The notes under the pieces are model-generated. The model searched no databases, was not told the DNA's origin, and saw nothing but the letters and a program-made list of their open reading frames with translations. A stretch of 64,000 nucleotides of DNA from positions 186,001-250,000 of the forward strand of contig JANQPB010000006.1 of the NCBI GenBank assembly GCA_028285495.1. The letters run 5' to 3'. Shown one piece after another: positions 32,258-54,313 of this stretch. Positions within the stretch are counted from its first letter, which is position 1, and every line of letters starts with the position of its first letter. Origin of the DNA: Acidimicrobiales bacterium. GTDB lineage: Bacteria; Actinomycetota; Acidimicrobiia; Acidimicrobiales; SZUA-35. The position numbers were made by a program, and so were the translations under genes.

Positions 32258-33622
32258 ATGGACACCTTCGACCTCATCATCATCGGCAGCGGTTCGGGCA
32301 ACGCCATCCCGGCCGAGCTCGCCGACTGGCGGATCGCCCTCATCGAGAAGGGCACGTTCGGCGGCACCTGCCTCAACGTCGGCTGCATCCCGTCCAAGAT
32401 GTTCGTCCTCCCGGCCGACATCGCCGAGGCCGCCCGCCACGGCTCCCGCCTCGGGGTCGACACCAGCTTCAACGGCGTGGACTGGCCGGCCATCCGGGAC
32501 CGGGTGTTCGGCAAGATCGACCCCATCGCCGCCGGCGGCGAGGAGTACCGGGCCACCGGCACCCCAAACCTCGAGCTGATCCGGGGCACCGCCCGCTTCG
32601 TCGACCAGCGGGTGCTCGAGGTCGACGGTCGCCGGCTGACCGCCCCTCGCGTCCTCGTCGCCACCGGTTCAAGGGCCATCGTGCCGGACCACGGCGGCCT
32701 GCTCGACGTCCGGCACCACACATCCGACACGATCATGCGCCTCGACCGGCTGCCCGAGCGGCTCGGCATCCTCGGCGGCGGGTTCATCGCAACCGAGATG
32801 GGCCACGTGTTCTCCGGGTTCGGCAGCCGGGTCACGCTGTTCAGCCGTTCGGCGCCGCTGCTGCGGGCCGAAGACGCCGAGATCGCGGAGCGCTTCACCG
32901 AGGTCTTCGGCCGCCGGGTCGACCTCCGCCTCGGCCGCGTCCCCGACCGGTTCGAGACCGCGGGCGACGCCATCCGCATCCACTCGGGCGACGAGGTGAC
33001 CGAGGTCGACGAGCTGCTCGTCGCCATCGGCCGCCAGCCCAACTCCGACCTGATCGACGCCAGGGCCGGCGGGCTCGAGGTCGACGAGTGGGGCGTGATC
33101 AAGGTCGACGCCACGATGGCGACCACCGTCGAGGGCGTCTGGGCCATCGGCGACGTGGCCAACGAGCACCAGCTCAAGCACCTGGCCAACGCCGAGGCCA
33201 AGGTGGCGTTCTGGAACATGGCCAACCCGGACGAGCCGAGGACCGTCGACTACCGGGCCGTGCCCCACGCGGTGTTCAGCGACCCGCAGGTCGGGGCCGT
33301 CGGCCTCACCGAGCAGCAGGCGACCGATGCCGGCATCGACCACGTCGTCGGCCGGCGCGACTACGCCGGCACCGCCTTCGGCTGGGCGCTCGAGGACGGC
33401 GACTCGTTCGCCAAGGTCCTCATCGCCCGTGACACCGGGCTGATCATCGGCGCCCACGTGCTCGGGCCCCAGGCCGCCACCCTCGTCCAGCCGCTGATCC
33501 AGGCGATGCAGTTCGAGCGGCCGGCGGCCGAGTTGGCCAACGACGTCTTCTACATCCACCCGGCCCTCACCGAGGTGGTCGAGAACGCCCTGCTCGACGG
33601 CCTGGAGAAGCTGGGCGCGTAG
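32258..33622 (+). CDS. mtr: Mycothione reductase
   Basis: This 454-residue flavoprotein disulfide reductase keeps mycothiol reduced with NADPH. The FAD site is IIIGSGSGN, which has the SGN variant typical of Mtr. The redox pair is C38-C43 (GGTCLNVGCIPSKM). The C-terminal active-site base is in HPALTEVVENAL. It follows the mycobacterial Mtr pattern closely (VFGKIDPIAAGGEEYR, HHTSDTIMRL), which separates it from glutathione or lipoamide reductases. It implies mycothiol as a low-molecular-weight thiol, beside ergothioneine. Confidence 0.94.
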   Translation: MDTFDLIIIGSGSGNAIPAELADWRIALIEKGTFGGTCLNVGCIPSKMFVLPADIAEAARHGSRLGVDTSFNGVDWPAIRDRVFGKIDPIAAGGEEYRATGTPNLELIRGTARFVDQRVLEVDGRRLTAPRVLVATGSRAIVPDHGGLLDVRHHTSDTIMRLDRLPERLGILGGGFIATEMGHVFSGFGSRVTLFSRSAPLLRAEDAEIAERFTEVFGRRVDLRLGRVPDRFETAGDAIRIHSGDEVTEVDELLVAIGRQPNSDLIDARAGGLEVDEWGVIKVDATMATTVEGVWAIGDVANEHQLKHLANAEAKVAFWNMANPDEPRTVDYRAVPHAVFSDPQVGAVGLTEQQATDAGIDHVVGRRDYAGTAFGWALEDGDSFAKVLIARDTGLIIGAHVLGPQAATLVQPLIQAMQFERPAAELANDVFYIHPALTEVVENALLDGLEKLGA

Positions 33623-50614: not shown

Positions 50615-51478
50615 TCAACGATCGGGTGGGCGGTGGTGGCGGATCGGGCGATGGGTCCTGGCGAACTCGGGCCAGCGGGAGAACGGGGGACCGGCATCGA
50701 AGCCTCCGTCGACCACGAACTCCTGCCCGGTGACCCAGGTGGCGTCGTCCGAGGCGAGGAACAGGGCCATGGCTGCGATGTCGTCGGCCTCGCCGACCCG
50801 GCCCATGACCTGGGCGCCGGAGCTGATGTCGCGCATCTTCTGGATCCGCTCGGCGTCGGCATCGGGATGGCCGGCGGCCAGCGGGGTGGCGATGAAGCCG
50901 GGGCAAATGGCGTTGACCCGGACCCCGTGCTCACCGAGCTCGAGAGCGACCGAGCGGGTCAGGTGGATCACCGCGCACTTGGCCGTCGAGTACAGGTGGG
51001 GGGCGTAGCCGGCCCGGAGCCCGGCGACGCTGGCGGTCGAGATGATCGACCCCGACCCCTGCTCGGTCATCACCGGGGCGGCGTGCTTCATGCCGAGGAA
51101 CACGCTCTTGACCAGGACGTCCATCGTCAGGTCGTAGTCCTCGACCGACGTCGACGAGATCGGACCGAGGGCCCCGCCGAACCCGGCGTTGTTGAACAGG
51201 CAGTCGAGGCGGCCCCACAGGTCGGTGGCCTCGGCCACCATGGCGGCAACGTCCTCCTCCTTCGACACGTCGGTGGCCAGGAAGGCGGCGGCATCGCCGA
51301 GCTCGTCGGCCAGGGCGGCGCCCCGCTCGGCGTCGAGGTCGGCGATCAGCACCCTGGCCCCCTCGGCCACGAACCGCCTGACCGTCCCGGCCCCGATGCC
51401 GCTGCCTCCACCGGTGATCACCGCCACCTGCCCGTCGAGCCGCCCTCGCGAGGCGGCGCCTCCCTCAGCCTGCGCCAT
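50615..51478 (-). CDS. Short-chain dehydrogenase/reductase
   Basis: This 287-residue SDR has TGGGSGIG, NNAG, and YSTAK, with the ending GQEFVVDGG followed by a basic, disordered tail of about 25 residues. The ATG at 51478 shares a base with the stop of the upstream LLM gene (TGATG), so the two are translationally coupled and likely act in one pathway. Confidence 0.92.
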   Translation of the reverse strand: MAQAEGGAASRGRLDGQVAVITGGGSGIGAGTVRRFVAEGARVLIADLDAERGAALADELGDAAAFLATDVSKEEDVAAMVAEATDLWGRLDCLFNNAGFGGALGPISSTSVEDYDLTMDVLVKSVFLGMKHAAPVMTEQGSGSIISTASVAGLRAGYAPHLYSTAKCAVIHLTRSVALELGEHGVRVNAICPGFIATPLAAGHPDADAERIQKMRDISSGAQVMGRVGEADDIAAMALFLASDDATWVTGQEFVVDGGFDAGPPFSRWPEFARTHRPIRHHRPPDR

Positions 51479-52398
51479 CAGTCGCCTCCCACGGCGTCGT
51501 CGATCCTGGTCTTGAGCCGGCCCAGCTCGTCGAGCATGGCCTCGACCGAGCGGGCCCCCGACTGGAAGATGGCGGTGGCGTTGAGCGACACCCACTCGAA
51601 GCCCATCCCGGCCAACGCCTCGACCCGCCGGACCACCCGGTCGTGGTCGGCGTACCAGTCCTTGTCCTCCGGCCTGCTCGGAGGCGGCTGCAACATCATC
51701 TGCAGGCCGATCTCGGCGGGATTCCGCCCGGCGGCCTCGGCCTCGCGCCGGATCGTGTCGATCGCCCGGGTGATCTTCGACTCGTCGACCATGGCGCTGC
51801 CCATCCAGCCGTCGCCGAGCCGGGCGGTGCGGCGCAGGGCCGCCCCCGAGCCACCGCCGATCCAGATCGGCGGCCCGCCCTCCTGGGCCGGCTTCGGCTC
51901 CATCGCCATCGCCGTCGACGTGTAGTGCTCACCCCGGTAGTCGATGCGATCGTCCGACCAGTAGGCCCGCAGCAGCTCGATGGCCTCGTCCATCCGCCGC
52001 CCCCGGTTCGAGAAGTCCTCCTCCAGGGCGTCGTACTCGGCCTCGTGCCAGCCGACCCCGACGCCGAGCCGGACCCGCCCGCCCGACAGGAGGTCGATGG
52101 TCGAGATCTGCTTGGCCACCAGTACCGGCTGGCGCTGGGGGAGCACCAGGACCTCGCTGGAGAGCCCGATCCGCTCGGTCACCGCCGCCAGTTGGGCCAG
52201 CAGCACCACGGCTTCGAGGATCGGCATCTGCGGCGGGTAACGGGGGGCCTCCCGGTCGTCGGTGCCGAAGCCCATCACGACGTGGTCGAACACGGCGATC
52301 TCGTCGTAGCCGATCTCCTCGAGGCCCCGCCCGAAGTCGAGGACCTTTTCAGGGCCCTCCCGGTAGGCGACGCTCGGGTAGTCGACGGTCAGTTTCAC
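51478..52398 (-). CDS. LLM-class (F420-type) oxidoreductase
   Basis: This 306-residue luciferase-like protein has GYDEIAVFDHVVMG, STIDLLSGGRVRLGVGVGWH and PPIWIGGGSGAALRR. The GTG at 52398 has an excellent ribosome site, GAGGAGG. It lies 46 bp after the MerB-like gene and is coupled to the SDR that follows. A hydride-transfer step feeding that SDR is the likely arrangement. Confidence 0.92.
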   Translation of the reverse strand: MKLTVDYPSVAYREGPEKVLDFGRGLEEIGYDEIAVFDHVVMGFGTDDREAPRYPPQMPILEAVVLLAQLAAVTERIGLSSEVLVLPQRQPVLVAKQISTIDLLSGGRVRLGVGVGWHEAEYDALEEDFSNRGRRMDEAIELLRAYWSDDRIDYRGEHYTSTAMAMEPKPAQEGGPPIWIGGGSGAALRRTARLGDGWMGSAMVDESKITRAIDTIRREAEAAGRNPAEIGLQMMLQPPPSRPEDKDWYADHDRVVRRVEALAGMGFEWVSLNATAIFQSGARSVEAMLDELGRLKTRIDDAVGGD

Positions 52399-52444: not shown

Positions 52445-53170
52445 TCACACCCCGCTGGTCAGACGGTCCCGCAGGCCGGCCCAGGCCGCTCGACCTTCGT
52501 CCGAGCCGGCCCAGGTCAGGTAGTCGGTCCGCCCTCGCTGGCGAAACACCGGCGACGAGAACACGTCGGCCCACCAGGCGACCGGGCGCAACATGCGGTC
52601 GGCCGTCGCCGGCTCGAAGCCGGACCAGGCCCTGGCCGTCTCTTCCGACCGGAAGAGGTTCATGTTGCTTCACCGGAAGGGTCTGGTCGACGGGTCGCCG
52701 CCGACCTCGGCGCTCGTGTAGCCGACGAGCGTCTCCGGCTCGACGAGGAGGAGCTCCTCGTCCCGCATCTCGACCACCATCGGCTCACCGGTGGTCAGGT
52801 CCGGAGCGTCGACCCGGACCGTCCTGCCGGGTACGAGCCAGCGCACGGCCAGCGACTCGAAGCCTCACTGACCGAACCACCCGTGCTGGCCGTCGATCGA
52901 GATGCGGTACTGGGTCGGCTGGGCGTTGAACGGCGGGAACGAGGCGATCCAGTCGGTCCCCGGATGGGTCCAGCCGGGGGTCAGCTCCATTAGCCGGTGG
53001 ACCAGCGTGCGGCCGTCCTCGACCGCGACCCCGAGCGAGGCGGCGACGTCGGTGAAGTGCAGGGTCTCGCCCCGTTCGACGAGGGCGGCCATGATCGTCG
53101 CATAGGCCGCGTCCAGGTGGCGATCCAGGTCGGCGGCCGGACCCGCCGGATCGTCGCTCGAGGTCGACAT
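52445..53170 (-). CDS. MerB-like organomercurial lyase with two in-frame TGA codons (probable diselenoprotein)
   Basis: One reading frame of 241 codons is interrupted only by TGA at 52867-52865 (codon 102) and 52672-52670 (codon 167). Read through, it matches MerB: a winged-helix N-terminus, QYRISIDG, GRTVRVDAPDLTTGEP, EELLLVEPE and NLFRSEETARAW. From memory of E. coli MerB, codon 102 aligns with catalytic Cys96 (WCALD) and codon 167 with Cys159 (FCCHVHFF). Their spacing is 65 against 63. Asp99 corresponds to E105. Both TGAs are followed by hairpins like bacterial SECIS elements, so selenocysteine is the best reading. The enzyme would cleave carbon-mercury or similar bonds. The start ATG 53170 has TTGACA-17-AAACCT seven bases upstream. 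A pseudogene or reinitiation at ATG 52663 are alternatives. Confidence 0.78.
52640..52657 (-). promoter_or_regulatory. Candidate SECIS hairpin for the second TGA
   Basis: In the mRNA, CUCUUCC pairs perfectly with GGAAGAG around a GGUC tetraloop. The stem starts 12 bases after the TGA at 52672-52670 and the loop begins at base 20. The GGUC loop is the one I recall from the E. coli fdhF SECIS, and the distance lies in the working range for bacteria. Confidence 0.7.
52835..52858 (-). promoter_or_regulatory. Candidate SECIS hairpin for the first TGA
   Basis: Six bases after the TGA at 52867-52865, GAGUCGC pairs with GC-U-GGCUC (one bulged U and one G-U pair). The nine-base loop UGGCCGUGC has GG at bases 15-16 after the TGA. 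It is weaker than the second hairpin but correctly placed. Confidence 0.5.
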
Positions 53171-53215: not shown

Positions 53216-54313
53216 TCAACTCGATGCGGTGGCGATCCCGAGCAACTCGGCCGCCCGCTCGACCCGACGCTCGACCGTCTGCCGGTACTGGTCGAGGTCG
53301 AGCTCTTCGTCCTGGGCCCCCTGCTGGCCGTTGAGGTAGCGGGCGTACACCCCCTCGCCGATGCACGCCAGGCGCCAGCTGGCCCACGCCCGGTAGTAGT
53401 CGACCTGGCCGAGCTCGACGCCGGTGGCGTCGGCGTAGCGCCCGGCCAGCTCCTGCTGGTTGGCGAATCCGGGCAGGCCGGTCGTCTCGTTGTCGCCACC
53501 GGCGTCGGGGTCGGCGGGATCGTGCCAGTAGCCGAGCAGTCCGGCCAGGTCGGCCAGCGGGTCGCCGAGCGTGCACAGCTCCCAGTCGAGGACGCCGACG
53601 ACGGGGCCGTCTGGGTCCATCATGCAGTTCGAGAGTCGGTAGTCGCCGTGGGCGATCGTGGTTCGGGCCGCCACCGGTACCCGCGCCGTCAGGGTGTCGC
53701 GGACCCGGTCGATCAGGGGGATGTCTCGGGTCTTCGACTGCTCCCACTGGCCCGACCACCGTCGGATCTGGCGCTCGATGTAGCCGCTCCGCTTGGCCAG
53801 GTCGCCGAGACCGACGTCGTCGATGTCGACCTCGTGGAGGGCGACCAGGGTGTCGATCAGATCGTCGGACATGCGGGCCCTGGCCTCGGGGGCGATGGCC
53901 CGGCCGATGTCGATGTCGCGGACGATGACCCCGTCGAGGAAGTGCATGACGTAGAAGTCGCGCCCGTTGACCTCCGGGTCCTGGCACAGGCCGATCAGGC
54001 GGGGGACGGGCACCGGGCTGTCGCGCAGGGCGTGCATCAGCCGGTGCTCGCGGGCCATGTCGTGGGCGCTCGGGAGGAGCTCGCCCATCGGCGGGCGCCG
54101 CAGCACGAAGCGGCGCCCGGCGGCGTCGGTGACGGTGAAGGTCATGTTCGACCGCCCTCCGGCGATCAGGTCGAAGCGGAGCGGGGGCTCGATCTCGGCC
54201 CGCTCGGCCAGCCACCGGGTCACGTTCGCCACGTCGATCGCGTCCGGGGCCGTCGGTGAACCGGTCGGGTCGGCGTTGTCGTCGGGAACCGATGCTGCCT
54301 GCATGGCCGTCAT
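53216..54313 (-). CDS. Phosphotransferase-family protein (APH/ACAD10-like kinase fold)
   Basis: This 365-residue protein has an aminoglycoside-phosphotransferase-like kinase fold: an N-lobe with GGRSNMTFTV, the catalytic loop HGDYRLSNCM and the metal-binding VLDWELCTLGDPLADL. Relatives in actinobacteria and in the N-terminus of ACAD10/11 phosphorylate 4-hydroxyacids for acyl-CoA breakdown, which fits the lipid-rich context better than antibiotic resistance. Starts at 54313 or 54304 are both possible. The MerB-like gene starts 45 bp downstream. Confidence 0.88.
   Translation of the reverse strand: MTAMQAASVPDDNADPTGSPTAPDAIDVANVTRWLAERAEIEPPLRFDLIAGGRSNMTFTVTDAAGRRFVLRRPPMGELLPSAHDMAREHRLMHALRDSPVPVPRLIGLCQDPEVNGRDFYVMHFLDGVIVRDIDIGRAIAPEARARMSDDLIDTLVALHEVDIDDVGLGDLAKRSGYIERQIRRWSGQWEQSKTRDIPLIDRVRDTLTARVPVAARTTIAHGDYRLSNCMMDPDGPVVGVLDWELCTLGDPLADLAGLLGYWHDPADPDAGGDNETTGLPGFANQQELAGRYADATGVELGQVDYYRAWASWRLACIGEGVYARYLNGQQGAQDEELDLDQYRQTVERRVERAAELLGIATASS

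Follow-up and report, generated by a model that had tools for sequence, protein, structure and literature searches.

Can a protein of the MerB family carry selenocysteine (Sec) at both of its mercury-binding positions? The question is raised by a gene in a 64,000-nucleotide stretch of an Acidimicrobiales genome (GenBank assembly GCA_028285495.1, contig JANQPB010000006.1, positions 186,001 to 250,000; hereafter the window), in which a sequence-only reading had noted a single MerB-like frame with in-frame TGA codons at codons 102 (site 1) and 167 (site 2). Both codons were located as described, on the minus strand, which that reading had left unstated, and the frame has no internal stop besides these two. 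In MerB the mercury of R-Hg-X is captured by the Cys96/Cys159 pair, with Asp99 assisting in protonation of the carbon. The reading had proposed a probable diselenoprotein, and this proposal is supported by the conservation of both sites, by the hairpins that follow them and by the Sec machinery of the genome. The gene very probably encodes a double-selenocysteine protein, and our interpretation, which we consider probable as a whole, is a diselenoprotein of the MerB family that would cleave carbon-mercury or similar carbon-metal bonds via a Sec-Glu-Sec site. The features are summarized in Table 1.

Homology, active site and predicted fold

The assignment to MerB held in a profile search: with Cys put for Sec, the read-through protein scored 59.3 bits (E 4.9e-16) against Pfam family PF03243, for which the cut-off is 27. 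In the genome scan the gene scored 42.7 bits and, its two TGA codons included, was the sole MerB match at E <= 0.001 in the source genome (6.75 Mb in 45 contigs, 98.8% complete, 3.8% contamination).

In phmmer alignments to solved MerB chains (aligned positions counted by hand on the printed alignment), residue 102 falls on Cys96, residue 167 on Cys159, residue 105 (Glu) on Asp99 and residue 124 (Asp) on Cys117. The two TGA codons thus occupy the two catalytic cysteines and Glu105 the place of the acid, as the sequence-only reading had claimed. None of the residues by which classical MerB is recognized (Cys96, Asp99, Cys117 and Cys159) is present in the window protein, which has TGA, Glu, Asp and TGA instead. 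In alignment A2 (34 rows, kept from an initial 46 distinct ones after 12 were left out, with L093 shortened), at least 90% of the rows hold Cys in the column of Asp124, and the window protein is an exception there.

The predicted fold of the window protein is that of MerB, which was the best match, with 17-20% identity to MerB in the structural alignments. At the top of the fold comparison stood MerB2 (18% identity), in the mercury-bound solved structure 5c17, which we take to be an ordinary Cys protein. Among NCBIfam models, none was over its cut-off for the window protein or for the four relatives tested.

Conservation of the two TGA codons

A total of 84 loci were compared, i.e. the window gene, three further loci and the best 80 of 154 relatives from a genome scan; all of these 80 originate from metagenome-assembled genomes, and near-copies are found among the rows (L106 equals L112 in the tree). 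The two search patterns of the scan sit upstream of both sites, so there was no selection for TGA. All 84 loci have TGA at site 2. At site 1, 45 have TGA, 35 TGC and three TGT; the remaining locus, L119, has a gap at this site and a match split over two frames, and was dropped from the 83-row tests. In each of the other 83 loci, the residue three positions past site 1 is glutamate. No further TGA was found inside the domain among the 84 loci; other TGA codons lie in the first 13 positions of the stretch or beyond position 220, close to one end or the other of the gene.

A protein search gave 389 relatives, and among the 120 listed, 117 end at ...RPFR, the residue just before site 2, because gene callers stop at TGA. 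The other three have Cys at both sites (P0004), Trp at both (P0003, from a metagenome) and Cys plus Trp (P0005), and the Trp residues may represent TGA translated by another code, P0003 possibly being a double-TGA gene in which the gene caller took TGA for Trp. Hence the UGA codons fall on Cys of homologues, as is asked of a bacterial selenoprotein: site 1 is Cys in 38 of the 84 loci, and site 2 is Cys in P0004 and in solved MerB. Homologues with Cys at codons 102 and 167, which the sequence-only reading had suggested looking for, exist, and its counter-case, homologues with neither Cys nor TGA at these sites, did not appear among the 84 loci; P0003 and P0005, with their Trp residues, came from the protein search.

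The titles of the carriers name Acidimicrobiia, other Actinomycetota, Chloroflexi, Dehalococcoidia, Deltaproteobacteria, Desulfo- lineages, Rokubacteria and Poribacteria; Desulfobacteraceae are among the lineages that carry the family. The form described earlier as actinobacterial is thus present in Actinomycetota, but it is not confined to them (Chloroflexota, Deltaproteobacteria and others). Among 61 genomes near the source genome (itself included), a set that probably overlaps partly with the genomes of the 154-relative scan, 14 carry the family in 15 copies, nine with two TGA codons and six with one; two further weak matches in these genomes (27 and 29% identity) have no TGA.

In a phylum sample, a MerB match was found in 48 of 396 genomes, and among the loci fetched from it four have TGA at both sites together with Glu. 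A second, actinobacterial kind, represented by 18 loci (L027, L029, L032, L035, L036 and L043-L055), has Cys at site 1, Asp three residues on and TGA at site 2. Since both Cys/Asp/TGA and TGA/Glu/TGA loci are seen, the TGA at site 2 spans the Asp and the Glu sides of the family.

Two side observations concern copy number and protein length. In one relative's genome (G468), two copies of the family are present (L153 and L164), each with two TGA codons; their identity to the window protein is 63% and 46%, respectively. Three double-TGA loci (L040, L041 and L042) have a C-terminal extension of about 65 residues, which is missing from the window protein, and cluster with two Chloroflexota loci in the tree.

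Selection and history of the sites

Among pairs of double-TGA loci, the median pN/pS was 0.26 before site 1 (479 pairs), 0.29 between the sites (288) and 0.28 after site 2 (87); pairs were limited to pN under 0.25, and synonymous change was near saturation, so these numbers are rough. For the window gene and its seven nearest double-TGA loci, the ratio was 0.41-0.66 before, 0.32-0.45 between and 0.48-0.71 after the TGA codons. Codons before, between and after the TGAs thus show more synonymous than other change, which argues against decay.

These data bear on the reading of the gene as a decayed merB with two nonsense mutations. Under the standard code the frame does hold two in-frame stops, but both codons are TGA in 45 of the 84 loci, the frame of the window gene has no additional internal stop, and synonymous change exceeds amino-acid change past each TGA. 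The pseudogene reading was rejected on the conserved double-TGA loci and the synonymous excess, and we give it practically no weight. The argument of the sequence-only reading, that two random nonsense mutations would not hit these two residues, agrees with TGA at site 2 in all 84 loci and with TGA (45) or TGC/TGT (38) at site 1 in 83; as to other disabling mutations, which would have told against it, the relatives show no additional TGA in the domain, and one locus of 84 (L119) is split over two frames.

On a tree of the 83 rows with both sites masked, the state of site 1 changed at least eight times, six of these changes being forced by well-supported branches. Double-TGA loci occur on either side of the midpoint root, with single Cys loci (L096, L104, L115 and L129) interspersed among them. 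We read the pattern as a putative old double-Sec form in which site 1 would have changed repeatedly from Sec to Cys.

Hairpins past the TGA codons

The hairpins that had been noted past each TGA were recovered in the relatives. At site 2, the complete stem is found in 72 of the 84 loci, compared with a mean of 7.6 and a maximum of 15 in a synonymous control. Its pairs change together, i.e. by compensatory changes: the Arg-Ser pair is C-G in 75 loci, A-T in eight and C-A in one, the Leu-Glu pair is C-G in 77 and G-C in seven, and the outer pair is C-G in 66, T-A in seven and T-G in one, with a C-A mismatch in ten. The first of the two Glu codons in the stem is GAA in 78 of 84 loci, against 41% GAA elsewhere in these genes, and the FRSEE motif past site 2 may owe its conservation to the RNA hairpin no less than to the protein. 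Folding z averaged -1.88 at this site and -0.18 elsewhere (p 3e-29, with rows that are not independent). Of the 18 Asp-kind loci, 11 have the full stem and six have 5 or 6 of its 7 pairs; L054 has 3.

At site 1, 43 of the 45 TGA loci have the complete stem (control mean 4.8, maximum 11), as do 13 of the 38 Cys loci (control mean 1.7, maximum 7); the comparison of TGA with Cys loci gives Fisher p 1.4e-9. The consensus folding energy is -7.8 for the TGA set (45 sequences) and -0.7 for the Cys set (35 distinct sequences). A bacterial Sec insertion element (bSECIS) is a hairpin just past the UGA, with its apical loop about 16-37 nt away and a G at the start of the loop. Both hairpins of the window gene conform, with loops 17 and 19 nt past the UGAs and a G within the first two loop bases.

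A protein with a single Sec, in which one TGA would be read as Sec and the other as Cys, Trp or by slow read-through, is suggested by the Cys at site 1 in 38 loci while site 2 is TGA throughout, and by the site-1 hairpin itself, which contains two G-U pairs and lacks a plain folding signal. Yet this hairpin is found in TGA loci far more often than in the synonymous control, and TGA at site 1 has been kept by 45 loci across several phyla; we consider a single Sec highly improbable.

Selenocysteine machinery

The genes that a Sec-decoding host must possess, and whose presence the sequence-only reading had made a point of verification (selA, selB, selC and selD), are represented in the source genome by SelA, SelB, SelD and tRNA-Sec (Table 1). 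The selD gene (locus L060) has an in-frame TGA of its own, in what we take to be the usual Sec place of SelD. The search for SelA covered the source genome. SelB was found over cut-off in 47 of 50 carrier genomes tested (of 80). In the phylum sample, SelB was over cut-off in 214 of 396 genomes, and in 19 of 21 genomes with a TGA-containing MerB match compared with 195 of 375 others (p 4.5e-4); these counts were made by hand, with some genomes judged over cut-off from the E-value; excluded were the second frame of L020, which is a misaligned piece, and L056, whose frame is broken. The two TGA-MerB genomes without SelB over cut-off are 73% and 68% complete.

A variant code in which TGA encodes an amino acid genome-wide has nothing for it except the two codons themselves. 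It is contradicted by the TGA stops of the window gene and both its neighbours, by the presence of SelA, SelB and tRNA-Sec, and by the hairpins beside the TGA codons; on these grounds it was rejected, and its probability is negligible. The tRNA search with ARAGORN covered the window and three loci.

Genomic context

The gene is flanked on the same strand by a downstream neighbour that is presumably an LLM-type, F420-dependent oxidoreductase-like protein and by an upstream neighbour that we take to be phosphotransferase-like. For the partner search, open frames were clustered around the 83 loci and the window gene, and the 40 largest clusters were judged by eye; the recurrent neighbours, beside the gene itself and shadow frames, were ordinary metabolic genes, present at 15 or so loci at most.

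A MerA-like frame lies within the window about 19 kb from the gene (positions 32267-33580, plus strand), with 274.6 bits, below the MerA cut-off of 454.45, and five more such frames with 259 to 326 bits are located elsewhere in the genome. These frames are probably other disulfide oxidoreductases.

Table 1. Features of the MerB-like locus and of the Sec machinery in the source genome (window positions, or contig and positions in the source genome)
Feature	Position	Strand	Details
MerB-fold gene	52445..53170	minus	241 codons + TGA stop; ATG at 53170, TGA stop at 52445; two in-frame TGA codons, predicted Sec
TGA codon 102 (site 1), on MerB Cys96	52865..52867	minus	frame reading and phmmer alignment
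TGA codon 167 (site 2), on MerB Cys159	52670..52672	minus	frame reading and phmmer alignment
Glu105 (GAG), on catalytic Asp99 of MerB	52856..52858	minus	phmmer alignment
Asp124 (GAC), on MerB Cys117	52799..52801	minus	phmmer alignment
SECIS-like hairpin, site 1	52837..52853	minus	GCUGGC, 5-nt loop, GCUGGC; begins 11 nt past TGA
SECIS-like hairpin, site 2	52640..52657	minus	CUCUUCC, GGUC loop, GGAAGAG; begins 12 nt past TGA
Downstream neighbour	51478..52398	minus	306 aa; 46-nt gap; TGA stop
Upstream neighbour	53216..54304	minus	45-nt gap; TGA stop; start 54304 is one Met chosen within a longer open frame
tRNA-Sec	C8:164628-164719		64.8 bits; ARAGORN anticodon tca
SelA	C8:118396-119565		403.7 bits
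SelB	C8:117239-118294		272.4 bits
SelD	C34:101680-102603		352.8 bits; own in-frame TGA in HGAGUACK

Proposed function and mechanism

Several observations weigh against a double-Sec, carbon-metal-cleaving MerB. On the RNA side, the plain 45-nt folding z at site 1 failed to separate TGA from Cys loci (p 0.33); for the window gene it was +0.6 at site 1 (and -1.7 at site 2). A tree-corrected test of site 1 comprised six independent contrasts (on average 2.3 with the hairpin, 0.0 against it and 3.6 without difference), which is below what significance needs, and an Rfam scan of the region gave six weak matches, all far below cut-offs and none to a SECIS family. With respect to the host, three of the 50 carrier genomes tested (G407, G415 and G424) have no SelB over cut-off; in G415, a SelB-like fragment lies at the edge of a contig. 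The pN/pS of the window gene against its seven nearest loci is just moderately low. On the protein side, the classical MerB equivalogs NF009710 and NF033555 gave 29.8 and 27.5 bits, far below their cut-offs of 193 and 200, and with Asp99 replaced by Glu and, in the window protein, Cys117 by Asp, the chemistry may have shifted. Finally, no mer gene was seen adjoining the window gene, no operon partner and no mer-like gene stood out across the clustered loci, and no MerA over cut-off was found in the source genome.

The last of these points also favour a different role for a true double-Sec MerB homologue, i.e. one that has kept the MerB fold but, instead of cleaving carbon-mercury bonds, binds metal(loid)s, does redox chemistry or acts on another organo-element. 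The replacement of Asp99 by Glu, seen in 83 of 83 loci, suggests that geometry or substrate has shifted, and the loss of Cys117 in the window protein points the same way, as does the position of MerB2 at the top of the fold comparison; MerB2 is an Asp99 variant that also binds other metals. On the other hand, wherever both metal-binding positions hold a residue (83 loci), each of the two is encoded by a Sec or Cys codon, and a carboxylate three residues past site 1 in every one of these loci preserves the MerB triad in a softer form. Because of the invariant Glu, we retain such an organo-element or metal-binding role as an unlikely but serious alternative.

Given a double-Sec protein, function as a carbon-metal lyase would be the probable outcome by analogy with MerB, and cleavage of carbon-mercury or similar carbon-metal bonds is the likely predicted activity of the window protein. 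Sec-tRNA would be delivered by SelB at both UGAs, via the hairpin just 3' of each. Following the MerB mechanism, one selenolate would attack the metal of R-Hg-X and the second selenolate would join the metal; Glu105 would pass a proton to the carbon, whereupon RH would leave and the metal would stay on the two selenolates. At neutral pH, selenolates surpass thiolates as nucleophiles and are the softer ligands, and a Sec/Sec site would therefore suit trace concentrations; the cost of the selenolate pair would be slow release of the metal. Since no MerA over cut-off and no mer neighbours were seen, our guess is that, in place of reduction by MerA, the freed metal might be handed to thiols or retained in the form of a metal selenide.

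Comparison with known proteins

The window protein shares family and fold with MerB (PF03243; 3f0o, 3f2g and 1s6l), and its two metal-binding residues and its acid lie at matching positions; it differs in TGA for Cys96 and Cys159, Glu for Asp99, Asp for Cys117 and the lack of adjoining mer genes.

MerB-like selenoproteins have been listed before. SaoL (NF040728) appears in Table 1 of PMC13188914, an inventory of 2026, as a MerB-like organometallic lyase with motif CU and one Sec; in the part of that table available to us it is the sole MerB-like entry, and the entries with two Sec have short motifs such as UxxU, CxxU, CxU and UxxT. SaoL and the window protein are alike as MerB-like proteins with predicted Sec. 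In contrast to SaoL, the window protein has no Cys before either TGA (its motifs are QU and RU, the CU motif being absent) and has two TGAs, on the catalytic positions; its score against the SaoL profile was 16.2 bits and that of the best of five members tested 43.3 bits (L118), with a cut-off of 140. The part of PMC9312934 available to us mentions an alkylmercury lyase MerB-like selenoprotein with no statement of its motif. An 'Organic mercuric lyase MerB2' is named among predicted selenoproteins in the available part of PMC7435645, which states neither the number and position of its Sec nor its sequence; this MerB-type protein with predicted Sec may correspond to the Cys/Asp/Sec type of the 18 loci described above.

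In the literature searched, which included few subscription papers, no description was found of Sec at both catalytic sites of a MerB-like protein, and the term MerB is absent from the main text of PMC5029168 and PMC2398784. Within that literature, MerB-like predicted selenoproteins are already listed, and what appears to be new here is the Sec predicted at both catalytic sites.

Implications

We tentatively envisage, as a possibility that falls short of an even chance, a widespread enzyme, independent of mer genes, that would demethylate methylmercury or another organometal by means of two Sec and a Glu and would hold the metal on the selenolate pair, perhaps to pass it on as inert selenide. 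If this is true, such a demethylase would be missed by merB surveys that demand Cys96, Asp99, Cys117 and Cys159. The merB search of PMC9948709, as far as that paper was available, was built on the conserved Cys 96 and 159; its reference list includes studies of methanogens and sulfate reducers as oxidative demethylators. If mercury is demethylated by the family, present counts of demethylating microbes are incomplete. In the predicted protein, Sec would occupy two catalytic positions that are distant from each other yet belong to a single active site, the replaced pair being the mercury-binding pair, and the enzyme would directly test why a cell pays the cost of selenium for a soft metal.
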